From Lepidurus packardi (lineage: Eukaryota; Arthropoda; Branchiopoda; Notostraca; Triopsidae): a stretch of 64,000 bases of DNA. The stretch lies in assembly GCA_023053545.1 (NCBI GenBank), contig JAKZAN010000133.1, forward strand, positions 27,874 through 91,873, in the 5' to 3' direction. Made by a program: the position numbers and the translations under genes. A model generated the notes under the pieces. The model searched no databases. It saw only the letters and a list, made by a program, of their open reading frames with translations, and was not told the origin of the DNA. Positions 10,032-64,000 of this stretch are shown one piece after another (within the stretch, counting starts at the first letter, position 1; every line of letters starts with the position of its first letter).

Positions 10032-10299
10032 CCAAAGGATCAGACATTAACGCATTTGTAATTAACTTGTATACGAAATACAACTAAATCATGATGGGCA
10101 GCGTCTATGGGTGCTTGCAGAACCAGGGAAAATAGGCTAGTATTTTTTATGGGACTTTCAGATTTGAATATAAAATTTCCTAGTAAGAATTCCAATCGAG
10201 GAGACTTTCGCTTTCATTACCAGTATGAGGGTTATTAAATCGGCTCGGCTCTCCCACACTATATTCATTAAATTCCTACAAAAATATCTCACACTCGAC

Positions 10300-10566
10300 A
10301 TGACAACCATCTATATCGAATACTGCGGTGGATGAGGCTACAGAAGACCAGCCCAGGAGGTCGAGAGACAGATTCGCCAAAAGCTCCCTAACTGTCCTCC
10401 CATCGAACTCGCCTCCGCCCAGACACTCACCTCCCTCATCGAGGTGTTTGTGGTCAAGAACGGCCAAAGGACCAAGGTGTGGAGTCGAGGCAGACAGGAT
10501 ACCGTGGAAAGGGTCGATGAAATCGTGCAAAACCTGCAATCGGAGCTGCAGAGAAGTGAGAAGTGA
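10300..10566 (+). CDS. SELENOW: Selenoprotein W (Rdx family), TGA at 10333 read as selenocysteine
   Basis: 88 residues, the usual size of SelW. The frame from ATG 10300 reaches TGA 10333-10335 at codon 12 inside the motif Cys-Gly-Gly-TGA-Gly-Tyr, which matches the CxxU redox motif of selenoprotein W (CGAU-GY in animals). Past it the frame stays open to TGA 10564-10566 and keeps the family pattern: an amphipathic helix, then SLIEVFVVKNGQ (compare TGFFEVFV) and a final helix. A SECIS-like hairpin begins 30 nt after the stop. TGA is therefore both the only stop and the Sec codon here. Small thioredoxin-fold oxidoreductase of the cytosol. A short peptide ending at 10335 would be meaningless, and no intron removes the TGA while keeping the motif. 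Confidence 0.85.
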
Positions 10567-10595
10567 GAAGTGAGAAGTGAGTGAGTTGATGAGGA

Positions 10596-10660
10596 GGAAT
10601 TCCTTAATGATAGTCCAATACTAAACCTACAGGAGGATCGGGCTTGAAACCAGGAGTTTC
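10596..10660 (+). promoter_or_regulatory. Candidate SECIS element of the selenoprotein W mRNA
   Basis: An 8-bp lower helix pairs 10596-10603 (GGAATTCC) with 10653-10660 (GGAGTTTC). The non-Watson-Crick core is ATGA (10607-10610) opposite TGAA (10645-10648). The upper helix starts with AGTCC (10612-10616) against GGGCT (10640-10644). AAA at 10623-10625 lies 12 nt above the core, the spacing seen in eukaryotic SECIS elements, and CC/GG (10626-10627 with 10632-10633) can form the small extra helix of a type 2 SECIS. Pairing was done by eye; the middle of the upper helix is imperfect. Confidence 0.75.
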
Positions 10661-10745
10661 TCATTATATATGACTCGATATGCTATCATCCATTTGTAAG
10701 AATCGAATACTTTAGATTATCTCTCCCCATCGTAAGGGTGGTTTC

Positions 10746-16655: not shown

Positions 16656-19121
16656 ATGTTGAATCCCTCCGAACGCATCAAGTTCATTGCCCGATGGGAC
16701 CTCGAGAAGGCTATCGGACGCACCCCACTCCCGGCCATCCACAGGCTTTCCCAGATCCAACCCACCAAGATGGCTCCCATCCCTCCAAAGCTCCACCCAA
16801 CCCCTCCAAAACATGCACATTCCATGTTCGGCACTGAATCTAAGTCAGCCTAGAAGACTGGCCTGGAAGATACCAGTATTTCTACTGATAACAAGAGTCC
16901 CGTCATTGGAAATTGCAGTCCTATGCTTGATGAAGTTTTCTGCAACAATTTTCCGAGTTCTACACACCCGCCCCACAGTTGCAGCGAGGTCATGCATTAA
17001 GGCACCAGGAAAAGCTGCGTCGTGTCTCCGCTGAAGAACAAGAGTGCTGTTTTGGGGTTGGATCCTCGTGTATAGGAAGACAGTCCCCTAAATAAAAATT
17101 ATGCATTGGGCTATTCGCAGATTCAACGTTTGGCGCCCTTCCACAGTGGTTCTAAGATGTACTCGCAGGGAGATGCCTAACTCCTGCCCGGACCGCACCG
17201 TCGATCGAATAGCACCTTCAACCGGGCGATGCGCCAAAACCCACAGCACTCTTCGGCCAGTAAGCTCTGTCTCTTTACTTATACTTTTTGTCTTTAGAAC
17301 AGGAGTAAAAAGCAAAGGTCGAAAAGATCAAGGAGACCTGCCTGATGAAAACAGAAAAAAACCAAGAACCCAAGACCAACAGCGTCCGAAAGCAGAAGAA
17401 CAACACCACACCATTCCTCGACTCTGAGGTCTAATCAGAATCAGAGTCGATGAGCAGTCCTCCGAATGAAGAAGAAGACGCCTTAGGTTCTTATTGCAGT
17501 ACGAGTTCCAAGATGTACATGCTGAAGTCAGTGTACGGCGGGAGACCTGCCACAGTCTTCATACACTATTGCCCATAAACGATGGAAGATCGGCAGAAAT
17601 CGGAGCGAATCTTCCAAGTCACTGATAAAGTTAAAGAACTCTATAGCATTACCTTCAAAGTACAACTCATAGGCCTAATAACGACCATCTAAAATGAAGT
17701 GATAGTTTTTAGGTGATAATCCGTTCAAATGCGTAGTTAACCCTCTCAGGCACGGCGGGATATAGCAGACCGACGACAAAAACTGGACTATCTTCTGGGG
17801 TCTCTTGAAAAAGGGTATGATTAAAAAGCTTTCGAAACACCAGAAAGTGAACCATTTCCCGGGCTGCTGGGAGCTAGGCAGGAAGGATAACCTGTGGAAA
17901 AACCTGTCAAACTCGAAGAAAAAGCATAAATAAGCCTACAATTTTGTACCGCAGACCTTCATCCTGCCGGATGATTGGGAACGATTCGATAGAGCAAAGG
18001 AATAATGCGACAAAAAGAAGTTGTGGATCATAAAGCCGGTGGCATCATCCTGCGGCCATGGCATCAGGATGATCAGTAAAAAAACCAAGATTCCCAAAAA
18101 GAAGAAAGACTACCTCATCTGCGACTACATCCCCAACCCTTACCTCATCAACGGCCTCAAGTTCGACCTCCGCCTGTACATCCTCGTCTCGTCCTATGAT
18201 CCCCTGAGGATCTATCTCTTCGAAGATGGACTGGCCAGGTTCGCGACTGAAAAGTACACTACTAGTACTCACGAACTAGGCAAAAGATATGTGCACTTGA
18301 CGAACTATAGTGTCAACAAGTCTGCTCCCAAGTTCGTAAAAAATGTGAATGCCCAAGATGATGGGACGGGCTCGAAGTGGTCTCTGGTGGCTCTGAAAAG
18401 CTACCTGCAGTAAGTCCAGAAAGTAAACGTGGATGAAGTCTTCAGCAATATTGAGGACATCATCATCAAAACTTGTATTTCAGTGGAACCTTACATGCTG
18501 GATATGCATGCCAAGACCAGCGAACATAGGAATAACTGTTTCGAACTCTTCGGGTTCGATATTCTAATCGATGAGACCCTAAAACCATGGCTCTTAGAAG
18601 TTAACGTGTGCCCCTCCCTCAGCTCCAGTTCTCCTCTCGACTTGAGGATAAAGCACACGCTGCTCACTGATACCCTCAATCTCATTGGCATCCAGCCTCC
18701 AGAGCCACCAATCTCCAAAAATCTACACAAACTCAACGGTAGCCACAACAACTCTTCTGCCACTTCCTTTTCTCCCCACATCAACGCACAGTCCAACGAG
18801 ACTCTTGGTGGTGTCTGCGCTCGATCGAATCATAGGCCAGTTTTTTCGCGGAATATCCGCAGCCTAGCTGATCTGAACTACTGGAACTGTGTGGAGAAGC
18901 TGAATGCGGAAGACTGGAATGTGCTTTTCGAAACTGAAGAGGAGGATTATCGAAGAGGGCATTTCAAAAGAATTTTCCCGACGAAGGAGAACGTATAGGA
19001 GTACCAGAAGTATTTCTAGTTCGAGAGGTACAACAACACGATGGTGAGCAGGTGGCTGAAGGCAGAGGGAGGCGAGTTCCTGGATAAGATTGCTAAGAAA
19101 AACTATCACGGCTCCATCTGA
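16656..19121 (+). CDS. TTLL4: Tubulin-tyrosine-ligase-like polyglutamylase (TTLL4 type)
   Basis: 796 residues; introns 17260-17297 (38 nt) and 17713-17749 (37 nt); stop TGA 19119-19121. The first 350 residues are low complexity. The TTL domain follows: HQKVNHFPGCWELGRKDNLW (compare HQKLNHFPGSFQIGRKDRLW), FVPQTFILP, the ATP-grasp block KLWIIKPVASSCGHGI, LKFDLRLYILVSSYDPLRIY, VHLTNYSVNK, and ELFGFDILIDETLKPWLLEV with the metal-binding carboxylates and NVCPS after it. These fit TTLL4-like enzymes, which start glutamate chains on tubulin and other proteins in cilia and cytoplasm. The 37-nt intron is required to join VIVFR to HGGIEQTDD in the right frame. Confidence 0.9.
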
Positions 19122-38965: not shown

Positions 38966-41900
38966 ATGCATCATAGAGGCAAGCACAGCCAGGACAGGAC
39001 CCACCACCCTGACCTCAACGACCGCGCCCCCTCTCCCAAGAACAACTACGAATACGAAAAGTACCTCGAAAAGACCAGAGGAAAAAAGGGACCGGAAAAT
39101 CATCTATTCCAAAAGAAACTCGCAGCCGGCAAGTCCTTGGGAGAACTCAAATCCAAATTCCTGATGATGGACAAGCTCGAAGAGGAGTATGAGCAACTGC
39201 GCGAGAAGTCTATGAAAGAAGCCAAGCTACGCAGAGATATCTTGTCGCAGTCCCGCAAAAAAGAAAAAGAAGTATCAGTTCTTAAGAACAAGGTCAACAA
39301 ACACTAAATCGACAGAGTTAGTCTCAAGAACCGTCTCGCGAGACTCGAGGGCGAACGCGATAACTACTTAGTAGCCGTGGAGAGGTTGCAGAAGGAACTC
39401 AATGAGTATCGCAAAAGACTCAGACAGGAAATGTTCAGGCGGGAAGAGATGGAGAACAACTACCGGGTGCTCATCGAGGAGCAACAAAGAAGCTCAGCCC
39501 AGGACTACTACGCAGGCTCTAAGAAAAAGAAGCATGGTGCCAGTCAAAACAATCACAATCATGCATGTAGCAGATGTCCATTGCTCGAAGAGGAAATGGA
39601 GAGTATTGAAGGAGCCTATAAGAAAGAGGTGGGGCGCCTTAAAGACGACCTATCAAAGAATTACAACGAAATCATCAAAGTCGAACTCAACCTCAAAAAC
39701 ACAAATCAGGAAAGATAGAAGTTACAACAAGAGAAAGAATCCATTAAGATATAAAGAGACGAACTAAGGAAACGTATGGAAGAAATGAAGGCAACCCTAA
39801 AAAAGTGGGAGGGAGAAAGAGACACCATCAGACAGCTGGAGATTCATAAGGAAGAACTAACCAAGAAGAACAAGCAGGCGGAAGAGTGTTTGAATGGCCT
39901 GCGTCGAGAGTTCGAAAGCTTCAAAATCAAGAAGGAGAAAGAGTCACAAAAACACGAAAAGGATTTGGGCGAGATGCTACGTAGGCTATCAGAACAGCAG
40001 AATTAGAATTTGAATTTGAGGAACACTCTGAATCTCCTAAAAGAGAAGCAAGAATAGGAAGGGAGCTAGAAGGTCTCAGAGGCCTTAGTGCAAAATCTGG
40101 AGGGGGAGGTCAAGAAACTGAAGAAATAGAAGCAGGACATGAAGAACAAGGAGAGAGAGTTGGAAGACAAGCTGGTCAATCTGAAAATGTAGAAGGAGAA
40201 GGAGAAGAGGTAGCTGAGGGAAGCACTGAAAAGACTCGAAGAAGAAGTCAAGAACGAGTCGGGGACCCAATAACTGGAGAAGATGGAGAAGTTAAGGCAG
40301 AAGCTGGAAAAAGAGCTGCAAAAAGAAAGGGATGAACGAAAGGTAGAGGCGATAGAGAAAACCAAAGTTGAACAGCAATTGAAGGGGTTAGAGAAGGATA
40401 AGCAGAAGTTGGAGAACGAGATAAAGTGGATGAATGAGACTGTGAAGAGGGCACAGAAAGAAGCTGTACAGAAATAGGAGATACTAAAGAGTGTTGAGAG
40501 AGAATTGGAAGAAGCCGAGGAACTCAGGATGATGGTAGAAAAATACAAAGAAAGCTTGGAAAAGAGAGACAAGGAACTCAAAAAACAGAAGGAACTGTAT
40601 AGAGAGTTAGAGAAAATAGTGGAGGAGAATAGGGTGATGGCAGAAGAAAAAAGAGAGGAAAACTAGAAGATTCGACGAGAAGTAAAAGAGCTAAAAGAAA
40701 GGAATAGTCAAGCAGAAAAATAAATAAGATAACTGAGAGAAAAAGTGACTGACGGCGAGAGAGAAGCAAGGGAAATTATAAAGAGATTGAAAGAAGAGAA
40801 AGAGGAAATGATGTAGAGGGAAGAAGACGAAAAGGAGAATAGAAGGAGAGAAAAAGACAGAGAAGAGAAGTATATTTAGGAAATGAAGCAGAAGTATGAT
40901 TAGGCAAAAGAAAGAGAGGAGGAGTTGAACCAAGAAGTCTTGAGACTCAGTCAAGAGCTTCAAGCCCAAAAGCTGAGTGGCCAGACCGAGACTCAGCAAC
41001 TGTTGTAGCAGATCGCCCACTTGAGCGAACAGAAGGAGACTGCCAACAGAGACTTAGCACAAGCTCAAGAGTACATCAGGTAGTTGGCTGAGAAGGGGGA
41101 TGATGAAGAAGTCGACCAGTTGAACCAAGAAGTCTTGAGACTCAGTCAAGAGCTTCAAGCCCAAAAGCTGAGTGGCCAGACCGAGACTCAGCAACTGTTG
41201 TAGCAGATCGCCCACTTGAGCGAACAGAAGGAGACTGCCAACAGAGACTTAGCACAAGCTCAAGAGTACATCAGGTAGTTGGCTGAGAAGGGGGATGATG
41301 AAGAAGTCGACCAGTTGAACCAAGAAGTCTTGAGACTCAGTCAAGAGCTTCAAGCCCAAAAGCTGAGTGGCCAGACCGAGACTCAGCAACTGTTGTAGCA
41401 GATCGCCCACTTGAGCGAACAGAAGGAGACTGCCAACAGAGACTTAGCACAAGCTCAAGAGTACATCAGGTAGTTGGCTGAGAAGGGGGATGATGAAGAA
41501 GTCGACCAGTTGAACCAAGAAGTCTTGAGACTCAGTCAAGAGCTTCAAGCCCAAAAGCTGAGTGGCCAGACCGAGACTCAGCAACTGTTGTAGCAGATCG
41601 CCCACTTGAGCGAACAGAAGGAGACTGCCAACAGAGACTTAGCACAAGCTCAAGAGTACATCAGGTAGTTGGCTGAGAAGGGGGATGATGAAGAAGTCGA
41701 CCAGTTGAACCAAGAAGTCTTGAGACTCAGTCAAGAGCTTCAAGCCCAAAAGCTGAGTGGCCAGACCGAGACTCAGCAACTGTTGTAGCAGATCGCCCAC
41801 TTGAGCGAACAGAAGGAGACTGCCAACAGAGACTTAGCACAAGCTCAAGAGTACATCAGGTAGTTGGCTGAGAAGGGGGATGATGAAGAAGTCGACCAGT

Positions 41901-44536
41901 TGAACCAAGAAGTCTTGAGACTCAGTCAAGAGCTTCAAGCCCAAAAGCTGAGTGGCCAGACCGAGACTCAGCAACTGTTGTAGCAGATCGCCCACTTGAG
42001 CGAACAGAAGGAGACTGCCAACAGAGACTTAGCACAAGCTCAAGAGTACATCAGGTAGTTGGCTGAGAAGGGGGATGATGAAGAAGTCGACCAGTTGAAC
42101 CAAGAAGTCTTGAGACTCAGTCAAGAGCTTCAAGCCCAAAAGCTGAGTGGCCAGACCGAGACTCAGCAACTGTTGTAGCAGATCGCCCACTTGAGCGAAC
42201 AGAAGGAGACTGCCAACAGAGACTTAGCACAAGCTCAAGAGTACATCAGGTAGTTGGCTGAGAAGGGGGATGATGAAGAAGTCGACCAGTTGAACCAAGA
42301 AGTCTTGAGACTCAGTCAAGAGCTTCAAGCCCAAAAGCTGAGTGGCCAGACCGAGACTCAGCAACTGTTGTAGCAGATCGCCCACTTGAGCGAACAGAAG
42401 GAGACTGCCAACAGAGACTTAGCACAAGCTCAAGAGTACATCAGGTAGTTGGCTGAGAAGGGGGATGATGAAGAAGTCGACCAGTTGAACCAAGAAGTCT
42501 TGAGACTCAGTCAAGAGCTTCAAGCCCAAAAGCTGAGTGGCCAGACCGAGACTCAGCAACTGTTGTAGCAGATCGCCCACTTGAGCGAACAGAAGGAGAC
42601 TGCCAACAGAGACTTAGCACAAGCTCAAGAGTACATCAGGTAGTTGGCTGAGAAGGGGGATGATGAAGAAGTCGACCAGTTGAACCAAGAAGTCTTGAGA
42701 CTCAGTCAAGAGCTTCAAGCCCAAAAGCTGAGTGGCCAGACCGAGACTCAGCAACTGTTGTAGCAGATCGCCCACTTGAGCGAACAGAAGGAGACTGCCA
42801 ACAGAGACTTAGCACAAGCTCAAGAGTACATCAGGTAGTTGGCTGAGAAGGGGGATGATGAAGAAGTCGACCAGTTGAACCAAGAAGTCTTGAGACTCAG
42901 TCAAGAGCTTCAAGCCCAAAAGCTGAGTGGCCAGACCGAGACTCAGCAACTGTTGTAGCAGATCGCCCACTTGAGCGAACAGAAGGAGACTGCCAACAGA
43001 GACTTAGCACAAGCTCAAGAGTACATCAGGTAGTTGGCTGAGAAGGGGGATGATGAAGAAGTCGACCAGTTGAACCAAGAAGTCTTGAGACTCAGTCAAG
43101 AGCTTCAAGCCCAAAAGCTGAGTGGCCAGACCGAGACTCAGCAACTGTTGTAGCAGATCGCCCACTTGAGCGAACAGAAGGAGACTGCCAACAGAGACTT
43201 AGCACAAGCTCAAGAGTACATCAGGTAGTTGGCTGAGAAGGGGGATGATGAAGAAGTCGACCAGTTGAACCAAGAAGTCTTGAGACTCAGTCAAGAGCTT
43301 CAAGCCCAAAAGCTGAGTGGCCAGACCGAGACTCAGCAACTGTTGTAGCAGATCGCCCACTTGAGCGAACAGAAGGAGACTGCCAACAGAGACTTAGCAC
43401 AAGCTCAAGAGTACATCAGGTAGTTGGCTGAGAAGGGGGATGATGAAGAAGTCGACCAGTTGAACCAAGAAGTCTTGAGACTCAGTCAAGAGCTTCAAGC
43501 CCAAAAGCTGAGTGGCCAGACCGAGACTCAGCAACTGTTGTAGCAGATCGCCCACTTGAGCGAACAGAAGGAGACTGCCAACAGAGACTTAGCACAAGCT
43601 CAAGAGTACATCAGGTAGTTGGCTGAGAAGGGGGATGATGAAGAAGTCGACCAGTTGAACCAAGAAGTCTTGAGACTCAGTCAAGAGCTTCAAGCCCAAA
43701 AGCTGAGTGGCCAGACCGAGACTCAGCAACTGTTGTAGCAGATCGCCCACTTGAGCGAACAGAAGGAGACTGCCAACAGAGACTTAGCACAAGCTCAAGA
43801 GTACATCAGGTAGTTGGCTGAGAAGGGGGATGATGAAGAAGTCGACCAGTTGAACCAAGAAGTCTTGAGACTCAGTCAAGAGCTTCAAGCCCAAAAGCTG
43901 AGTGGCCAGACCGAGACTCAGCAACTGTTGTAGCAGATCGCCCACTTGAGCGAACAGAAGGAGACTGCCAACAGAGACTTAGCACAAGCTCAAGAGTACA
44001 TCAGGTAGTTGGCTGAGAAGGGGGATGATGAAGAAGTCGACCAGTTGAACCAAGAAGTCTTGAGACTCAGTCAAGAGCTTCAAGCCCAAAAGCTGAGTGG
44101 CCAGACCGAGACTCAGCAACTGTTGTAGCAAATTCACCTCCTCTCTAACTCTCTCCATGTATCCCCAACTCATCTGTTCCATCAGAATGAGTCACTCTCG
44201 TAGATTACTTAACTTAAAGCTACTGTTTAAACCCTCTAGTCTTAAAAGCTTTACCTTTTTTAAAAGCTCTCTTATGCTAATGAACAAATAATTCAACTTC
44301 GTACACAGACTCTTTCCAATACCTATAGCAGTAGCTTTAAAGATATGGAAAATACTTTGACATCCATGCCTCGGACATTCTAAGTTACTCAGCCAGTGAT
44401 TAAGTTGCCTGCCTGCGTGGGTATGTGGTCTGCGAGTGAGTAAATAACGATTCGGATCATTGAGGGTTTATTAGAAGAGGAGCTAATGAGTCAAGTGTTT
44501 GCGCCTACGTTTGATTACAACCTGTAGATATAATGA
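38966..44536 (+). CDS. Giant coiled-coil protein with 16 identical 65-residue repeats
   Basis: 1,856 residues in one uninterrupted frame, ATG 38966 to TGA 44534-44536, no introns. The N-terminal 650 residues are a highly charged coiled coil (Lys/Glu/Arg/Gln), with one Cys pair near CSRCP. Then come 16 complete and one partial copy of a 65-residue repeat (LNQEVLRLSQELQAQ ... LLEQIAHLSEQKETANRD ...), each with two TAG codons read as Glu. After the partial copy the frame continues for 135 unique residues (IHLLSNSL ... LEIE). A standard code would break this gene at dozens of places. Long rod-like structural proteins of this kind occur in ciliate cortex, basal-body-associated fibres and contractile stalks; location here is unknown. 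Confidence 0.85.
40925..44130 (+). repeat. Tandem repeat, 195 bp x 16.4 copies
   Basis: Copies start at 40925, 41120 and every 195 bp to 44045; the last is cut off at 44130. All copies I compared are identical base for base, including synonymous sites. 195 = 3 x 65, so the array keeps the frame of the coiled-coil gene. Copy number could be affected by assembly. Confidence 0.97.
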
Positions 44537-50720: not shown

Positions 50721-52112
50721 TCAGGCCATGGGATAGACTTTGTACGGATTCAAAATTCCATTCGGGTCGAATACGTGTTTCAGCTGGTGCATCACGTCCA
50801 GCACCGCCTTGGGTTTCTGCAATCCCAGGTATGCAGTCTTGTGTGCCCCGACTCCGTGCTCCGCGCTGATGCTCCCATGCTTCTTCACTACTTCCATAAA
50901 CACCTCCTTCTCGTCCAGCGGGGCATCCTTGTCCAGACAGATATTGAGGTGTAGGTTGCTGTCCCCGATGTGGCCATACCCAATCACGTAGCCTCCGAAC
51001 TTGCTACGAGCTTTGGTGACGAAGTCGTCCCATTCGTGGACGTCGAAGGATATATCGTAGGAGTGCACAGTGCCCATCTTATTTGCCGCTAAAGCAATGT
51101 CCTCTCGGATCTTCCAAATGGCTTTGTACTCTTTGTCGCTGTTCGACATAATAGAGTCTTGGAACTCGGGCAGCTTGTCAAGCAGCGGCTCAATGTCTTC
51201 AGTATTGACCTCGACCAACAGCAGGTGGTCTGTCAGCTTCACAGACATCACTTCAGGGTGGAGGTGCTTCGTCACGGCGTGGTAAGAATAGCCATCCATA
51301 TACTCCAGGGCTGAGAGTTGTTTTCCGAGAGACTTGGCCTGCTTGGCTGCCTCCAAGATGGTGGCATAGTTATCGGTCTTGAACAGCAGCACCTTGCGGA
51401 TTTGGTCAATCTTCATGCAGTTGATATCTAGTTTGGTGATGACTCCTAATGTCCCTTAGGCTCCGATCAACAGTTGTTTGATATCTGGCCCTGTGTTGTC
51501 TTTACGGATGCGCGATCTCATATCCAGGATAGTTCCATTGGCTAGCACTGCTTCCATGCCCAGGATATGGGCTCTCAAAGGCCCATGTTTAATAAAGTAT
51601 TTGCCTCCGGCGTGGGTTGCAGCGTTACCTCCTATCAGGCAGGACCCTTTGGCTCCTAAGTCGAGAGGGACTTAGAAACCATGCGGCTCAAGGAATTAGT
51701 TCAACTTTTCCAATATGCAACCTGACTAGCAGCTCAATACTCCACTGACAGCATCGAACTGCTCGACTTTATTGAAACCACGCATACTCATGATCACTTC
51801 ATCAAAGACAGGCACTGATCCTCCCACGAGTCCAGTGTTGCCGCTTTGAGGGACCACTGCAAGTTTTCGAGAGTTGCAATAATTGAGAATTTGGGAGACC
51901 TGCTGGGTGGTTGAGGGTTTGAGAACCAGTTGTGATTTGCCTTGGTAGGTCCTGAGGAAGCAGATGTTGTAGGGCTGGGCTTATTATGCAGTGTAGACGT
52001 GGCTTTGACCGAGGGTGGACTTGAAGTAGGAAAGGTCTGAATCTGTGAGAGTGGCGAAGGAGGGGTTGCGAGTGGTAGCGAATAGTCTTCTGAGTACAAT
52101 TTTTCTGAACAT
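50721..52112 (-). CDS. D2HGDH: D-2-hydroxyglutarate dehydrogenase, mitochondrial
   Basis: 463 residues, no intron; start ATG 52110-52112, stop TGA 50721-50723. The first 20 residues are basic and Arg-rich ([15 protein letters not shown]), a mitochondrial import signal. FAD-binding PCMH domain: [52 protein letters not shown] then Glu (TAA, 51456-51458) GTLG. C-terminal cap and metal site: [13 protein letters not shown] and [18 protein letters not shown]. These match D2HGDH more than D-lactate dehydrogenase, because of the RKDNTG and GDxNLHLN contexts. It oxidises D-2-hydroxyglutarate to 2-oxoglutarate. Confidence 0.92.
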
Positions 52113-52647
52113 TTGGAGGGTGAGACGTTGGCGGAATGGGATTTATAATGTAGTGCAATCTGTTTGAGGAGCGATATCACGATTTTAGTGGTATACTCGA
52201 CACGGACTCCAAATTATCGGGTGCATTTTCCCTAAATTCTATACCGTTTAAATCAAACTTCAAAATGGAAACCTTATAAGGCTGTTTCACCAGCAACGCC
52301 GACACATCTGCATCTTCTCCACAGCTAGTGCTCTGGGGAATGAGGGATTGTGTGTCCACCAATCAACACAAGAACGTCAATTTAAAGAAAGCAGCACAGT
52401 ATTTTGGTGCCGAAGAAGATAGAAACTTTGAGAGTGTGTAAGTCAATCCGATCATGACGACCGAAGTTTTGATTGGAGCTTTGAGAGTATCAAAATTCCC
52501 CAATCTTGAGTTGTAAATACTTGCGGTGGGTCTCAGAGTCCTCCCTCCCTGTTCTTGGACCCGACCTGACCGGCAAAGACTGTGCAGGTTAAGTTGTCTA
52601 GCCTTAATGTCAACAGTTATCCTGTCGATTCTGCGCTGTGGCTGATT
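52113..52647. other. Intergenic region between divergent genes
   Basis: 535 bp between the D2HGDH gene (minus) and the disordered-protein gene (plus). A minus-strand frame is open at 52177-52362 and looks protein-like, but it has no ATG and no clear partner exon, so I do not call a gene. Confidence 0.4.
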
Positions 52648-54348: not shown

Positions 54349-57300
54349 ATGTCCTTCCTTCGCTACGGGCAAGTCATTCGCATACACAGCATCTTCTCCG
54401 ACGCAGATAAGAACGACATCACCGGCGTCCTCTCTTCCAAAGCGTAACGCCACACTCTTTTACTCAAACCCTAGATACACCGATGAGACACTTTACATGC
54501 AGACCTATCGAAACTTTAGGTGTCTTCCCAACTATCGCTAGTCCCTCTTCTAAGTCCTGCCCAAGTCCTCCTTCGATATTAATGATGAAATGAACAAAGT
54601 ACCCGAGTCTAAAAGGGAGGCCTTGGAACCCAGGGCCCGAACTTAGAGATAGCAGTTCTAATCGCTGGTCAAGCAAAAAAGAGGCGAGAATATCTACTTC
54701 GGGGCGCAAGTGGTGTTCAAGCATGTGGACTCAGGGTCCTATATTCACGCTACCTTCTAGTGTGCGAAATCTGGAATTGGTGCCTTCAAAGTGCATTTGT
54801 CGCCGCAGCTGAGTTCAGAAATAGTATTCAAGCTGGAATCCTTCAGAACCTACGAGAAGGTGGGTGACGAAATCAGTCTACGGGCACCCATCCTGATCTA
54901 CCATGAAGATACACGCTGTTATTTGTCCTACGAAACTGAAAATATCTTCCTGGACATTGTGCTGCCTTTGCAGAACTAGTTCATGTAGAGAGAATAGCGC
55001 GAGTGCAGGAGGCCTGCAATCAAGGTGCCAGCAGGTCCGCGCTACGAAGTCATCAATGAAAACATCCCCAAGCGTTCCTTTAGGTTCGAGGAACACGAGT
55101 CGTTCAGCTTCACGAAGCAGAAGGAACAAATATGCGTACATGACCTGGTTTACTTTGTGCACACCAAGGACAATAAGTACCTGGTGCCCCACCTGAACAA
55201 CAACTCTGTTTCCCTCAAGAAAAGGAAGGACGAAGAGGCTATCGGGGATTTCTTCGACGGAATCTGGGAAATCGAGGAGGAGTGCCTCGAGTTCTAGTCC
55301 TTTCTGACTTCCTCGCAGCAGAGATCTAACCAGAAAAGGAGGCTCGTGGCTTCTGAAATCGAGAAAAAATCAGCTTCTCCTAAACTTATCGTCAGGCATC
55401 TGACTTCCGGCCGCATACTCATGTTCGACAGGAACACAGAAACCCCCTGTGTCGAATAAAAAAACGAGCCCACCTCCAACTACCAGATGTAGCTTGCCTA
55501 TATCGGGAACAAGCTTGAAGAGAGTACCCTCGTCAACTTTACCTTTGCTGGGAAGTTTATCGACACAAAACGCAAGGGTGAGCAACGAGACTTCTCCCAC
55601 AGTCCCGTGCCTGTCCACAGCCTGTCCGTGGGAGTCGGGATGACGACTATTGGGTCTCAAGCTCCTATGATCGCGGCAGCAATTTAGAACAAGGATCAAA
55701 GGTAATTTGAAAAACTACTGTTCATGCAGGAGATGTATGAGAACTTCTTCGAATCAGAAGAGGTAGAGATGAACAAAGTGATGAACTAGCACGGCTTTAG
55801 AGTGTACAAGTTGGCCGAGGAGTTCAAGAAACAGATGCTCATGGTTGTCAGCGCCCAGGAGTTGTTGGCTAAGTTCGCAGACTTCCTGGCAGTCCGAAAG
55901 CATGGATTCCTGCAGTAGCATATCACATTTTCGCTGCTCAATGACGTCGTCAATACGATGAAGGACTTGGTAGGCTTCATCTACAACTGCGAGTACTCCA
56001 AGATCAAAGTGCTCGGAAGTAAGAAATCTCATCTAATTGTGTGTTTTGACCAGTATAGACAGCCCCGTAACGCAGCGCCAGAAGATCATGGAGGAATTGG
56101 GCATGGTGGAACTGATCACAGACTTGGTGGCCGAAATCGACAGAGTCTCCGATATTCTGAGACGCGAGCTTACAGGCAGGTAGTCCGAGTACTCGAAGGT
56201 GCGCATGATCTACAAACTGGGGTACGAACTGCTGTAGTCCACCGCCAAAAACAATCATAAGCTCAAGATTAAAATCTCATACTTCCTCAAATAGTACCTC
56301 AACCAGATGATCACCAAGAGCGAAAATAAAGTTGCCTACCGGAGTCTCACAGAAGTCCTCGACGACAACTACACGGCCATCGAGAAACTCGTAGAGGCAG
56401 ACACCCTCACAGCACTCATCGCCAGCTTCGACAAAGACAAGCCAGACCCTGATAACCTTAAGTTCTTGTCCATCCTGTGTCTGTGCAATGGACGGTCCAT
56501 AACGGCTAATCAGAATACTATCTACTCAGTCTTCTTCGAAGGGAGCGAGAAACAGCAACAGCCCGACAAGTTCCGATTCCGAGAAGACCATAACCATATG
56601 CAGATCGAGTCAACCCTTTCAGAAAACCATCCGGCACGGTTCAGAGTACTTCCAGAATTATATCGAGACTGTGAAAACGTTATGGAAGATCTCGATAAGG
56701 AAACAAGGCAGAAGGGTCACTGGAACTACTTCATCGAGTACTTGAACTTGATGGCAGACCTCTGCGTACACCGCAATCAGCATTGCCAAAGATATGTGAC
56801 TTCTATTCTGCCGCTGAAAAGACTGGTGGGGTTTTTGCAGGAGAAGATCGTGAAGGAGAAGGGTCTCTATCAACCCTTCATCAGACTAGTGCACTATGCT
56901 TATATCGAGACTTATGACTACGACTAAATCAACAGGATTTCGAAGGTGAAGGGATGGAGCGAGAGTTCGGAAATCTTCGAGATCCCCAGAACCAAAAACC
57001 AGATTAGTACCGAGCTGAAGTCTATTCTCGACATGATCATGGGCTACATCAGTAAGATTAATAACCCCGATGAATCCAACTCCATCGAAATGGACCCCAC
57101 CAACGTCGAACAGCTCAGGAATATCTACACCTTCCTCGAACTGCTCAAGTCCACACTCAACCTGGGATTCTGGGAGTCTATCAACAACCTCAAGGAGATG
57201 GTGCCCTGCATGCTCCGAATCCTGAAGTTCGACCTGTAGTACGCCCAGGCTGAACTCAAAAGGTCTATCAGGACCGAGGAGGAGAAGCATTTAGACGACA

Positions 57301-60300
57301 AAGCCTTCAAGAAGAAGGTCTACGGGAACATAAAACTGAAGCTGACTCTAAACAAACCCGAAATCAACCTGTTGGTCAAATGCAAAATAATAGCGGCCGA
57401 GATCCTCCACATCATCATTGATAACGACAACAACATCAGGGTCTCAGAAATCACTAAGCTCTTCAGAGACCTGCTTCAGATGAATATCGATATCTCCGAG
57501 TTCGACACGAGCGAGGAGGCCCAGCAGGAACTCACCCGCAAGCTCAAGTCCTACAAAGAGTACAACGAGTTTCGGCCAGACAACGAGAAGGAACGCATCA
57601 TGCTCAACGAACAGATCTGGATCAGCAAGCTCAACAAGCTTCTCGCAGACCGAGACATCTTCAGCGAAGTCAACCAGGATGAGTTGGACTACAGACTCAT
57701 TCTCTTCGAAATTAGCCACTACAGGAACTAAGTCCTTTCCAACTATTGTTTGTCTCTTCTGAGCAGGATCAATGGACAAAGGAAGTAGATCCTCGAGAAC
57801 TTCAGAAACATCATCATCATCAGCAGGAGCAACCAGCTTGACACCCGACTTGACACAACAAGAGGTATGCTCCTCGCTCTCAGTCACTATAATGTCCTGA
57901 ACGCCACCCTCGAAAACCAGCACCTGCAACAAGCTCTTCTGTGGTCCCAAAGCGGCAAGCTTGATAGCGCTATACAATAACTTGCGTTCCTCACTATTTC
58001 AATGAAGAAAAATGTAGAACTTAGTGCCTAGAATGCTGTAAAACTGTACCCGTATGAAGAACTATACCCGTATTTGCCCCTGAAGCCAGATGATAGACGT
58101 GAACGGGACCATTCATTCCTGATCATCACAGAGAAAGAATAGAACAACCCCCTTCACCAGCGACTGATCAAGAGTCAAGATCATCACCTGATCCTTTATG
58201 ACTTCATCAAAATAATGGAGTAGCTACCGGCTTCGGATCTGCCGGCCAAAGCTTTACACGCTGCCTACAACTTCCTAACAGTGCTTATCTGGAACAATCC
58301 TGAGATTAAGAAATAGCTGATGTATTTCCTGAGCAGGGCTGCAGTCCACCTGGAGTACAATATTGGTTGTCTGGACTTCTTCCGATAAATGTACACCAAT
58401 AATAAGGAGCTGGTCAACTCAGAGTCAGAGGTAACCAAACTCGTGGATAAAGTCGTGAGCATCGCCAACGGACTCCCTTCAACTAGCTATTACAAGTCCA
58501 AACTTATGGACTTCCTGCGCGTGCTGGTCATCTTCGACGACCAGGGCTACCAGAAGAATCAGAACATCGTTATGGAAGTTATTTCGAGATACCAGGTGAC
58601 CAATGGGAATCAGATTGTCTTCATCAGCAACCCCAAATTCTTCACTATCAACGAAATCACATTCGAGAGCTACATAAAAAACTTTGATGCTAGCTACAAG
58701 GAAAGTAGGGAAGCTGGCAAGCCACTCAAGCTCAGTGCCCCACTCACATACATCTCAGTCTTTTTCTAGATCTTCTCAGCCCTCATCGAGAACGAAAACA
58801 TTATCAACTTGGGCAAATGCACCAACATGCATCCCTACGAATGGCTCGTTAGGCTGCTCGAGAGGGCCGGAAACTGCTGGCCAGTCATCCGCTATTTGCG
58901 CTCCTACGTTAACAAACTGTACTACTTGGAGACAAGAGAGCGCGAGACCCAGTTGTTCGAGAAGTTCATCTAGTACTAGCTACTTAACATCCGCAACGAG
59001 CTGGATGGAATAGTGAGATTGAAGGAAAACTACCCCGAGTACACAGCCATCAAACTCGAAAATCCGATACGGTACACGTATCTGGGCAGCTATGTGTTCC
59101 TGACGCTGGAGGAAATTCTGGTATCTCTTGGCCAGATCTTCAGCAGTGTGGACTTCCAGAACTACTTCTCAGTGGTTTTGAGCCAGTCCAAGGACTATAA
59201 GACCACACATTTCTGCTTGATCGAAATCGCAGAAATGTTGGGGTACCTCAGCAAAAAACTTGATGGTAGAGCTATCAACAAGTTCCTGAACGAGATACGC
59301 GAGCTGACTCGCTCCCTTCTGATATCGTCGTTCAGCATCGAGGTGCTCAAGTAGTATGAGAGAATCAACAAATAAAAAATATCAAATCTGATGCTGTAGA
59401 ATCACGATTTAATTGATGACACGACGGCTCCTCCCAAAAAACAATACATCTTCCATAACCACAAGGGGTTCTGGAGACACCTCATCGACTGGTACGCACA
59501 TGATAAGCAGGAAAAGGCCAGAGAAAAGGTACTCAATAACGTCAACAGGATGGCCGAAAGAGGAGTCCATTACGGGGAGGCAGAAAAACAAAAGGAGAAG
59601 GAGAACTACGTCGATAAGTTCTGTCTCGGAATGATCGAGAAGAAAATCAAGATGCGAAGAATACACGCCAGCGAGAAGGAGAAGGTGCAGGACAAACCAG
59701 CAGCAGCAGAAGAAACCCTCAAGACCGAATCGGCTGTCCACAAGAACCTGGTGACTTCGAAGTCCAAGCACTTCAAGATCAAGAACGAGCCTGAACTCCG
59801 CCCCGAGTAGGAGAACATCCTGGTCAACAAGCGCCATAAGAAGCTGATGAAGTTCATCGAAGTCAATAAGACATTCGAAGAGTTCAAGATGGCGGAGTTC
59901 TACGACTTCTGCGAACAGCTCAGCAATCTCGACCAGTTCAGCGAGAAGAAGTACGATATGATCGTCATCGGAGCCTGCGATGTCATCAAGTCCTTTGTGG
60001 ATATGAATGAGGCCAACCCTTACTGCATTCGGTTCGAACTCAAGCTGACATTTTTGAATCTCCTATGTAACTTCGTGACACGCAATAACGCAGAAGTGTA
60101 CAGAAGCAAGGGGGTGGATAAATGGGAGAGCAGCGACTGGCTAGCATGTCGCGAGCTGATCTAGGGGGCCCAGAACTTCCTAGTGTCTTGTAATTGCGCA
60201 AAACTGATCTGCTCGATCATCAAGTACAACCTGGAAAACTCTTTGGAGATGGCCAACATGTTGTTCCAGTTCGCGATCGCCTTCCTCCTGGGCGGCAACA

Positions 60301-62651
60301 AGAAGAGCCAGACGTCGTTCATATAGATCTTCCGCAATGATGAGAAAAACATCATTTTCTCCCAGATAGAGAAGCTCATTAAAAAGTCTTCCTAAAGCAT
60401 CATTTCAGCCGTGCTGGCTCGCGAAAGAGGACAGGCCAACTTCGACAGGAAGACTGCCGACACCTATGACTTCTACGATGTCAACTAAAACATCATGGTC
60501 CGCAAATTCATCTACATCGAGCAGACCACCCAGGAGCAGAAGCTGTTTGATGACATGGTGTCCACCCTGTCCCGAGTGTATCGTTTCGTCCAGCTCCTCT
60601 GCGAACAGAACAACTCCGAGATGAAGAACTTCATTCGCGTGCAGGAGAATGTGGATGGAGAGCCATTCTCTAATAACATCGATTTCATTTAAATCAGCAA
60701 CGTAGAACTGAGGAAAATCTTCAAGATCCTCGACCAACAACTCGTCGCACTGCCACTCTCCCTGATTGACTTCATAAACGAGGTCACCCAAATTCCTTGC
60801 ATCGAGAATCAGATCGCGCTGTGCAAGGGAACCTTCTTCGAAGACGTGTGCCTGGTCGCATCGTCTTTCCGTGAGGAAAAGACCTGCAACTAGCGAGGCA
60901 TCGGAGAGGTCGAAAAACTGACACTGCTGAGGATCTTCAATAAATGCATCGACATCGCATTAAGCTGTCTGGAAGGAAACAATGATAAGATAGTTGAAGA
61001 CTTATCGAGCAAAATCGACCCTAGTTTCTTGGTTCAGATTATACAGGATAACCTCCTTCGAATCCCAGAGTTCCGCAGAGGAGACTCTGAGCACCTCACT
61101 TAACTCATCAGCAAAGAAAAGACCCACTCTGATGAGGTCGAACAGGTACTGCGCATCGTGGCGTTCGTGAACAAGATTGATGCGTGTGGAGACTCAACCC
61201 TCAAGCGTAACTTCTAGAAGGAGCTTAACGAATAGGTGAAGCCCATAATTACCTTGCTGAAGGAAAATCTATTGTGCATTGAAATCAATAACAACGGCAA
61301 ACAGGTAGTGTACTTCCCTTTCCACCCAGTGTACCGCTACCTTTCTGACTCCACCAAGGATAAAATCATGTTCGAAGTCAACAGGGAGACTCAGAGAGAT
61401 AAACTCATTGGCCTCCTCAAGACTGAGCAGGAGATCAGCAATGAAATCGACTACAACTTCGAGTTGGACCACCTCAAAATGCCTGTCTTCACCTTCTCGG
61501 TCTCCTCAAAGAAAATCAGCATGCTCCGCACCATAGCTCAGATGATAAGCGTAGTGATTTGTGTGTTCCTATTGGTGTCTGCCCACGTTGACTATTATGA
61601 GGATGAAGAAGAAATGGAGTACTCGCTGGGGAAGCAGCAGCAGACAGTGAGAATCCTCAGTGTTGTTCAATGCATCTCCACTCTGGCGTATTTGACTTTG
61701 TGGCTGATCAATAGGACAAGACTGTCAATCTGCAAGTATGAGGAATAGTTGAACTCCCAACAGGAAGAGAACGGTGGTTCTGATGCTATGAAAGAGTACC
61801 GATTGTTCTCAATCTACCCGATAAAGGCACTTTACTGTCTGGCCAGATATGAAGAAGAATTCGCCAGCATCGTGTTGTTCGTAGTGGCTAGTCTTTTAGG
61901 CACTTTCTATAAGATTGAGTACTATACCCTGCATCTGTTCGATCTGGTCAGCCAGATTGAACTTCTGACCAACGTATTCCAAGCCGTGACCAGCAATCTC
62001 AAACTTCTGGGAATTGTGTCGCTGCTGGGCATTAGTTTCATCTGCATCTTCTCAATCTTCAGCTTCAACTCATATGCCAAGTCTATCTACCCAGATGATA
62101 TCCCGAAAGAGCACTGTGAAACCATCATTTCCTGCATTATGACCCTGTACATTAGCGAGCAGATTGGAGGCGATATGGATAGCTTCGACGCTTTCAGGTT
62201 CTCTTTCGACCTGATTTATATCATCTTCATGGAGCTCCTATTCGGTAACATTATCCAAGGCATCATGATCGACACCTTCGCTTCTCTCCGAGACAAACGC
62301 CGCTCTATCGAGCTGGACAAAAAAGGAATGTGCTTTATATGTGGTATTTCGCGAGAGACTCTCTAGAAAAGTTCGGTCGAGTTGGTTGAACACTACGTCA
62401 GGCAGAATCACGTGCTTTGGGACTATGCGTTTTACCTGTACTATCTGCAGCACAAGCACAAAACGAACAAGACTTTCACAGGGCTGGAGTATATTATCAG
62501 GGAAAAGATCAAGAAGGAAGATGTGAGTTGGATCCCAACTGAGGCCGATGATGAGAAGGATGTATCGTCGCAGCTCTAGGCCTTACAGGACGAGGTTAAG
62601 AAATGCAAGGAGATCGTCGAATCACTTGGATTACCAGCAATAGGTAACTGA
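54349..62651 (+). CDS. ITPR: Inositol 1,4,5-trisphosphate receptor-type calcium channel
   Basis: 2,743 residues, the usual size of an IP3 receptor; introns only near the 5' end, 54444-54474 (31 nt) and 56019-56058 (40 nt); stop TGA 62649-62651. Order: N-terminal suppressor-type domain (LPKSSFD), MIR beta-trefoil repeats (YFGAQVVFKHVDSGSYIHA), RIH domain (QRQKIMEELGMVEL) and NQN block (CLCNGRSITANQNTIYSV), a long helical solenoid, then six membrane segments from about 61510. YTLHLFDLVSQIELLTNVFQ matches the animal S3 region; S6 and the tail read IMIDTFASLRDKRRS and CFICG ... EHYVRQNH, the conserved zinc finger and end. The selectivity filter is IGGDMD in place of GGGVGD. Intracellular calcium-release channel of ER or alveoli. 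Confidence 0.93.
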
Positions 62652-63734: not shown

Positions 63735-64000
63735 GGGGTTGGGGTTGGGGTTGGGGTTGGGGTTGGGGTTGGGGTTGGGGTTGGGGTTGGGGTTGGGGTT
63801 GGGGTTGGGGTTGGGGTTGGGGTTGGGGTTGGGGTTGGGGTTGGGGTTGGGGTTGGGGTTGGGGTTGGGGTTGGGGTTGGGGTTGGGGTTGGGGTTGGGG
63901 TTGGGGTTGGGGTTGGGGTTGGGGTTGGGGTTGGGGTTGGGGTTGGGGTTGGGGTTGGGGTTGGGGTTGGGGTTGGGGTTGGGGTTGGGGTTGGGGTTGG
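63735..64000 (+). repeat. Telomere, (GGGGTT)n
   Basis: 266 bases of GGGGTT without a variant unit (44 copies). The G-rich strand runs toward the window end, so this is the right-hand chromosome end. The unit is the Tetrahymena/Glaucoma type, known in Oligohymenophorea and unlike the GGGGTTTT of spirotrichs. No subtelomeric repeat precedes it. Confidence 0.98.

Follow-up and report, generated by a model that had tools for sequence, protein, structure and literature searches.

Among ciliates, Tetrahymena thermophila is reported to use all 64 codons, with UGA serving both as stop and as selenocysteine (Sec) codon (PMC7409322), and the same usage is described as inferred for Ichthyophthirius (PMC3341644) and for Oligohymenophorea sp. 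PL0344 (PMC10553269). Going by these reports, the three resemble the ciliate described here in that UGA alone ends translation and also specifies Sec, or is taken to do so on account of a tRNA-Sec. They differ from it in the meaning of the other two usual stops: UAA and UAG (UAR) are given as Gln in Tetrahymena and Ichthyophthirius, and as Lys and Glu, respectively, in PL0344, whereas here both are most likely Glu. Among ciliates, the code with UAA and UAG as Glu is the one described for peritrich nuclei (PMC11687900, PMC10553269); in the literature searched, judged by title or abstract start, no peritrich selenoprotein was found. In Condylostoma and Parduczia, as here, UGA is reported to have several meanings that include Sec specified with a SECIS (PMC4967479), but there, unlike here, it also stands for Trp and no codon is dedicated to termination. 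The family at issue, selenoprotein W (SelW), is described as widespread among selenoprotein-containing eukaryotes, with a Sec-containing version listed for Ostreococcus (PMC2375036).

The window, that is, the whole stretch of DNA analysed (64,000 nucleotides), lies on contig C122 of an assembly that is a mixture of a ciliate, another eukaryote and bacteria, with most of it belonging to the other eukaryote. C122 is one of the ciliate contigs with GGGGTT telomeres; the repeat also caps both ends of C73 and C325 and one end of C108, while the ciliate label of C229, C219 and C241 is based on UAR codons inside gene frames. By comparison, C2, C4 and C5 are contigs of 12 to 14 Mb, and the matches to SepSecS (C5) and eEFSec (C2) are split into several pieces, in the manner of intron-bearing genes. 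C43 carries a bacterial EF-Tu, and C60 includes a stretch of 33% GC with long frames in the standard code. The features of the window that bear on the argument are as follows:

10300–10566, plus strand: coding sequence of SelW (Rdx family), 88 residues and a TGA stop (Pfam, structure search, paralogue)
10333–10335, plus strand: TGA predicted to be read as Sec, in a CGGU motif (TGA also stands at this codon in the paralogue on C73)
10564–10566, plus strand: TGA stop codon of SelW (reading of the open frame)
10598–10658, plus strand: SECIS element (Rfam SECIS_1, RF00031; RNAfold)
17703–19121, plus strand: frame of a TTLL-type tubulin polyglutamylase with in-frame TAA/TAG (homologue alignment)
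50721–52259, minus strand: frame of D-2-hydroxyglutarate dehydrogenase (D2HGDH) with in-frame TAA/TAG, one TAA standing at the Glu of GSEGTLG (domain and homologue alignment)
63735–64000, plus strand: GGGGTT telomere at the end of C122, a ciliate macronuclear chromosome end (repeat)

The SelW frame begins with the ATG at 10300, giving a protein that starts MTTIYIEYCGGUGYRRP. The candidate Sec codon is codon 12, in the context TGC GGT GGA TGA GGC TAC, and the frame is open from there to the TGA at codon 89; the 88-residue frame with a TGA inside Cys-Gly-Gly-TGA-Gly-Tyr described in the first-pass annotation is thus present at 10300–10566. An alternative in-frame ATG lies upstream at 10225; of the two starts, the one at 10300 agrees better with the family and with the paralogue. 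The whole protein matches Pfam PF10262 (Rdx) with E 2.2e-9 (37.8 bits, cut-off 22.6) over positions 1–73 of the 74 in the profile, which bears out both the SelW identity and the normal family length that had been claimed for it; the part past the TGA gives, by itself, E 0.011 (16.3 bits, under the family cut-off of 22.6). A sequence search of the PDB returned mouse selenoprotein W with E 0.0064, ranked after a disulfide isomerase (E 0.00017). AlphaFold2 run on both SelW sequences predicted, with a pLDDT of 82.6, the order strand–helix–three strands–helix, and in this model the CxxU motif (YCGGUGY) sits at the end of the first strand (strand 2–8, helix 11–28). The predicted fold again points to SelW: its top Foldseek match is mouse SelW (2npb; TM 0.65, E 1.4e-3), with no match to the model reaching E 0.001. 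Animal (mouse 2npb) and algal SelW have length, CxxU centre and thioredoxin-like fold in common with the protein found here, the mouse version being only 23% identical to it in the Foldseek alignment and differing in that here UGA is the genome's only stop. The stop codon itself sits within a run of a 7-bp AGAAGTG unit (10552–10582), in which a change of copy number would shift the C-terminal frame; a further TGA lies in frame at 10582.

Eukaryotic SECIS elements lie 3' of the stop codon and combine an AUGA/UGAN core with an A-rich apex 11–12 nt above the core. The hairpin downstream of the window SelW has this core, apex and placement, though it scores under the Rfam gathering threshold: a covariance-model search, the kind of check suggested with the first-pass annotation, matches SECIS_1 at 10598–10658 with 25.9 bits, under the curated 35 bits (E 0.015 for 1 kb against 4227 models; E 0.39 for one family against the whole assembly). 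Its core elements are AUGA at 10607–10610, AAA at 10623–10625 and UGAA at 10645–10648. The AUGA/UGAA core and the 12-nt gap from AUGA to AAA agree with what had been proposed for this hairpin; the lower stem had been put at 8 bp, beginning 30 nt past the stop, and RNAfold instead gives 11 bp (10594–10604 paired with 10652–10662), beginning 28 nt after it. Compared with shuffled sequences, the fold energy has z = -2.84, with 3 of 200 shuffles as good.

A search of the 108.6-Mb assembly with SECIS_1, up to E 10, in which 133 of 1629 initial candidates were scored, gave at least four places, including that of the window. Each of the four listed places lies next to a selenoprotein-family gene on the matching strand, namely SelW in the window, SelW on C73, glutathione peroxidase (GPx) on C241 and Sep15/SelM on C4, and an in-frame TGA was observed in the first three of these genes. 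For the C4 locus, which belongs to the other eukaryote, the part viewed was the last one, comprising the 3' end of the Sep15/SelM gene with its SECIS match, and the active site lies outside it. The second SelW gene (SelW2; C73, minus strand, 1607–1864 of the examined stretch) has its TGA at the same codon as the window gene (SelW1) and its own SECIS (32.0 bits against a gathering score of 35; fold energy z -2.97 against shuffles); its neighbour is a gene of the Glu/Gln-tRNA synthetase family. The GPx gene (C241, about 55343–55909, minus strand) likewise combines an in-frame TGA with a SECIS, and its post-TGA part alone matches GSHPx with E 2.9e-27. Its SECIS scores 24.7 bits against the gathering 35 and folds unremarkably (z -1.62, 13 of 200 shuffles as good). 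This pairing of Sec TGA and SECIS differs from the ciliate GPx survey reported in PMC7409322, where all nine genes with a SECIS lacked Sec and no SECIS was detected for any of the eleven genes with Sec. In each of the three ciliate SECIS elements the gap between AUGA and AAA is 12 nt, and CC directly follows the AAA. Of the 18 pairs in their consensus fold, 11 show changes on both sides in at least one sequence and 8 are disrupted in one, counts that say little as they come from three sequences only. A further Rdx-family protein, on the minus strand of C108, has Cys and no TGA, and an EKPx repeat comes next in the same frame.

The paralogues bear on whether the TGA of codon 12 might simply end translation and leave the downstream SelW frame as a decayed remnant. 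Such a reading would accord with TGA being the stop of this organism and with the E of only 0.011 for the downstream part alone. Yet the TGA is kept in two paralogues, each with a SECIS, and the downstream frame shows, per site, fewer amino-acid than silent changes: past the TGA, SelW1 and SelW2 share 35 of 73 residues, with dN 0.44 and dS 2.05 by Nei–Gojobori counting, the latter being close to saturation and meaning 'many synonymous changes'. We therefore regard decay as very improbable. The dual reading of TGA proposed in the first-pass annotation, Sec at 10333 and stop at 10564, is instead supported by the SECIS, the C73 paralogue, the dN/dS comparison and a ciliate tRNA-Sec (below).

The SelW frame contains no TAA and no TAG, so the claim that UAR stands for Glu rests on other genes. 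We read the code from five genes spread over four contigs: two in the window (D2HGDH and TTLL), a dynein heavy chain (C325), Pelota (C219) and SepSecS (C229). For 39 UAR codons (23 TAA, 16 TAG) in these genes, we noted which residue the best PDB homologue has at the aligned position, the tally taking only codons inside the printed alignment to each gene's best homologue, with the dynein residues taken from the alignment by eye. Left out were the first four UAR codons of D2HGDH (before the alignment), those of the dynein that fall in a gap (two), in the cut-off ends or in the last third of the frame, a single codon at the SepSecS end, and any in TTLL beyond its first domain. The residues facing UAR are Glu in 12 cases, followed by Asp, Arg and Lys (4 each), Ser (3), Ala, Gly, Thr, Gln and Asn (2 each), and Ile and Pro (1 each). 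Summed BLOSUM62 scores over all 39 codons are best for Glu (64, with Gln at 30), and this holds for TAA alone (Glu 33, Lys 17) as well as for TAG alone (Glu 31, Gln and Asp 19 each). Much of this signal comes from the dynein, in which 7 of 17 codons face Glu, compared with 5 of 22 in the other four genes. Ordinary codons of those four served as a control: GAA/GAG align with Glu in 31 of 83 cases, and CAA/CAG with Gln in 13 of 35. The Glu place of the EKPx repeat on C108 provides a second line of evidence, being filled by TAA (9), TAG (1), GAA (8), GAG (5), TTG (1) and GAT (1), and never by CAA or CAG. Were UAR to encode Gln, the commoner ciliate code, one could point to the 2 of 39 aligned codons where the best homologue has Gln. 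Set against these are the 12 with Glu, the best fit of Glu for TAA and TAG separately, and a repeat position that mixes TAA/TAG with GAA/GAG to the exclusion of Gln codons, which together make the Gln code a most unlikely choice. Thus, UAA and UAG most likely both mean Glu, as first proposed.

A cognate UAR-reading tRNA was not found: a Glu/Gln-like pattern with UUA or CUA anticodon gave 28 matches against 24 in a reversed control, with 24 of the 28, which are pattern matches only, on C1–C6 and the other four on C16 (twice), C42 and C169. Neither the window nor 15 stretches of 8–10 kb, 12 of them on ciliate contigs, contain a tRNA according to ARAGORN. For two parts of a 2555-residue frame on C122, no relative turned up in the PDB, which made them unusable for the code.

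The same genes address a reading in which TGA has a sense meaning throughout this genome, either Cys, as it does in Euplotes, or Trp, and no Sec is involved. UGA is reported to be reassigned in Euplotes and Blepharisma (PMC11687900), and a CxxC would suit the motif. On the other hand, the homology of dynein, D2HGDH, Pelota and SepSecS extends over hundreds of TGA-free codons (in frames chosen as TGA-free), D2HGDH stops at a TGA where its homologues end, and this reading would leave both the SECIS elements and the tRNA-Sec of the ciliate unexplained. A general sense meaning is accordingly given very little credence, and these alignments support UGA as the only stop of the ciliate.

The Sec machinery has to be sorted by organism, since the other eukaryote in the assembly has its own matches to tRNA-Sec, SepSecS, eEFSec, SPS2 and PSTK, and an unsorted check would mislead. 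The tRNA-Sec search gave 10 places in the assembly and some match in each of 14 control genomes, and only two strong ones count, both with a UCA anticodon: one on C325, telomeric at both ends and hence of the ciliate (RF01852, 64.1 bits against a cut-off of 47), and the other eukaryote's on C4 (77.8 bits). A third place, on C5, at 47 bits just at the cut-off, is a tRNA-Ser by ARAGORN and was rejected. SepSecS is present both in a ciliate version on C229, with in-frame TAG/TAA, and in that of the other eukaryote on C5. The machinery anticipated for the ciliate was thus recovered in part. The assembly search found no ciliate eEFSec (domain III on C2 only), SPS2 (above cut-off on C1 only, with matches under the cut-off on C52 and C60), PSTK (a match on C3 only, below the curated cut-off) or eRF1; of the eRF1-family matches on C5, C2 and C219, we tentatively read that on C5 as eRF1 and that on C2 as Pelota, and that on C219 is Pelota. 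The best match outside C2 to the other eukaryote's eEFSec, on C43 (36% identity), is a bacterial EF-Tu and was rejected; weaker matches lie on C295, C76, C52, C60, C3, C4 and at a second place on C43. These absences are weak evidence, as the same kind of search with Rdx left SelW2 on C73 unlisted: they count for little because the tool misses members and the ciliate part of the assembly is probably incomplete.

We hence interpret the locus, with a probability of roughly 0.94, as a ciliate SelW gene in a code where UAR means Glu and UGA is both the sole stop and, guided by the SECIS, the Sec codon at position 12. As read from the DNA, this draws on the frame and its family, the TGA and SECIS kept in two paralogues, the ciliate tRNA-Sec and SepSecS, and the code. 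We infer that UGA codon 12 of the SelW mRNA would be decoded by tRNA-Sec(UCA), with the 3' UTR hairpin thought to recruit SBP2 and eEFSec, while UGA codon 89 of the same mRNA would terminate translation. The product would be a small redox protein, with a thioredoxin fold and CxxU at its centre.

That one organism gives all three usual stop codons non-standard meanings, as the first-pass annotation had it, is supported, but the arrangement is not new in view of the reports on Tetrahymena, Ichthyophthirius and PL0344: UGA as sole stop and Sec codon is already known from Tetrahymena, and this is another case. What the locus probably adds is a ciliate that combines the peritrich code with no fewer than three selenoprotein genes, two for SelW and one for GPx, all of them having an in-frame UGA and a SECIS, in a lineage undocumented with selenoproteins in the literature searched, including a Sec-GPx that keeps its SECIS unlike those of the PMC7409322 survey. 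With UGA as sole stop, each Sec decision would oppose the only termination signal and depend on the SECIS alone, and a second code background, with UAR as Glu, lets the sharing of UGA between release factor and SECIS machinery be compared. The three ciliate SECIS elements of one pattern (AUGA, 12 nt, AAA, CC) should be useful for ciliate SECIS models.

Two further long frames were observed in the window. One is a coiled-coil frame with sixteen identical copies of a 195-bp (65-residue) unit at 40997–44116, a repeat that is silent on the code, its two TAG columns being invariant. The other, at 55962–62651, is that of a large IP3/ryanodine-receptor-like channel with RIH, RIH_assoc and Ion_trans domains.
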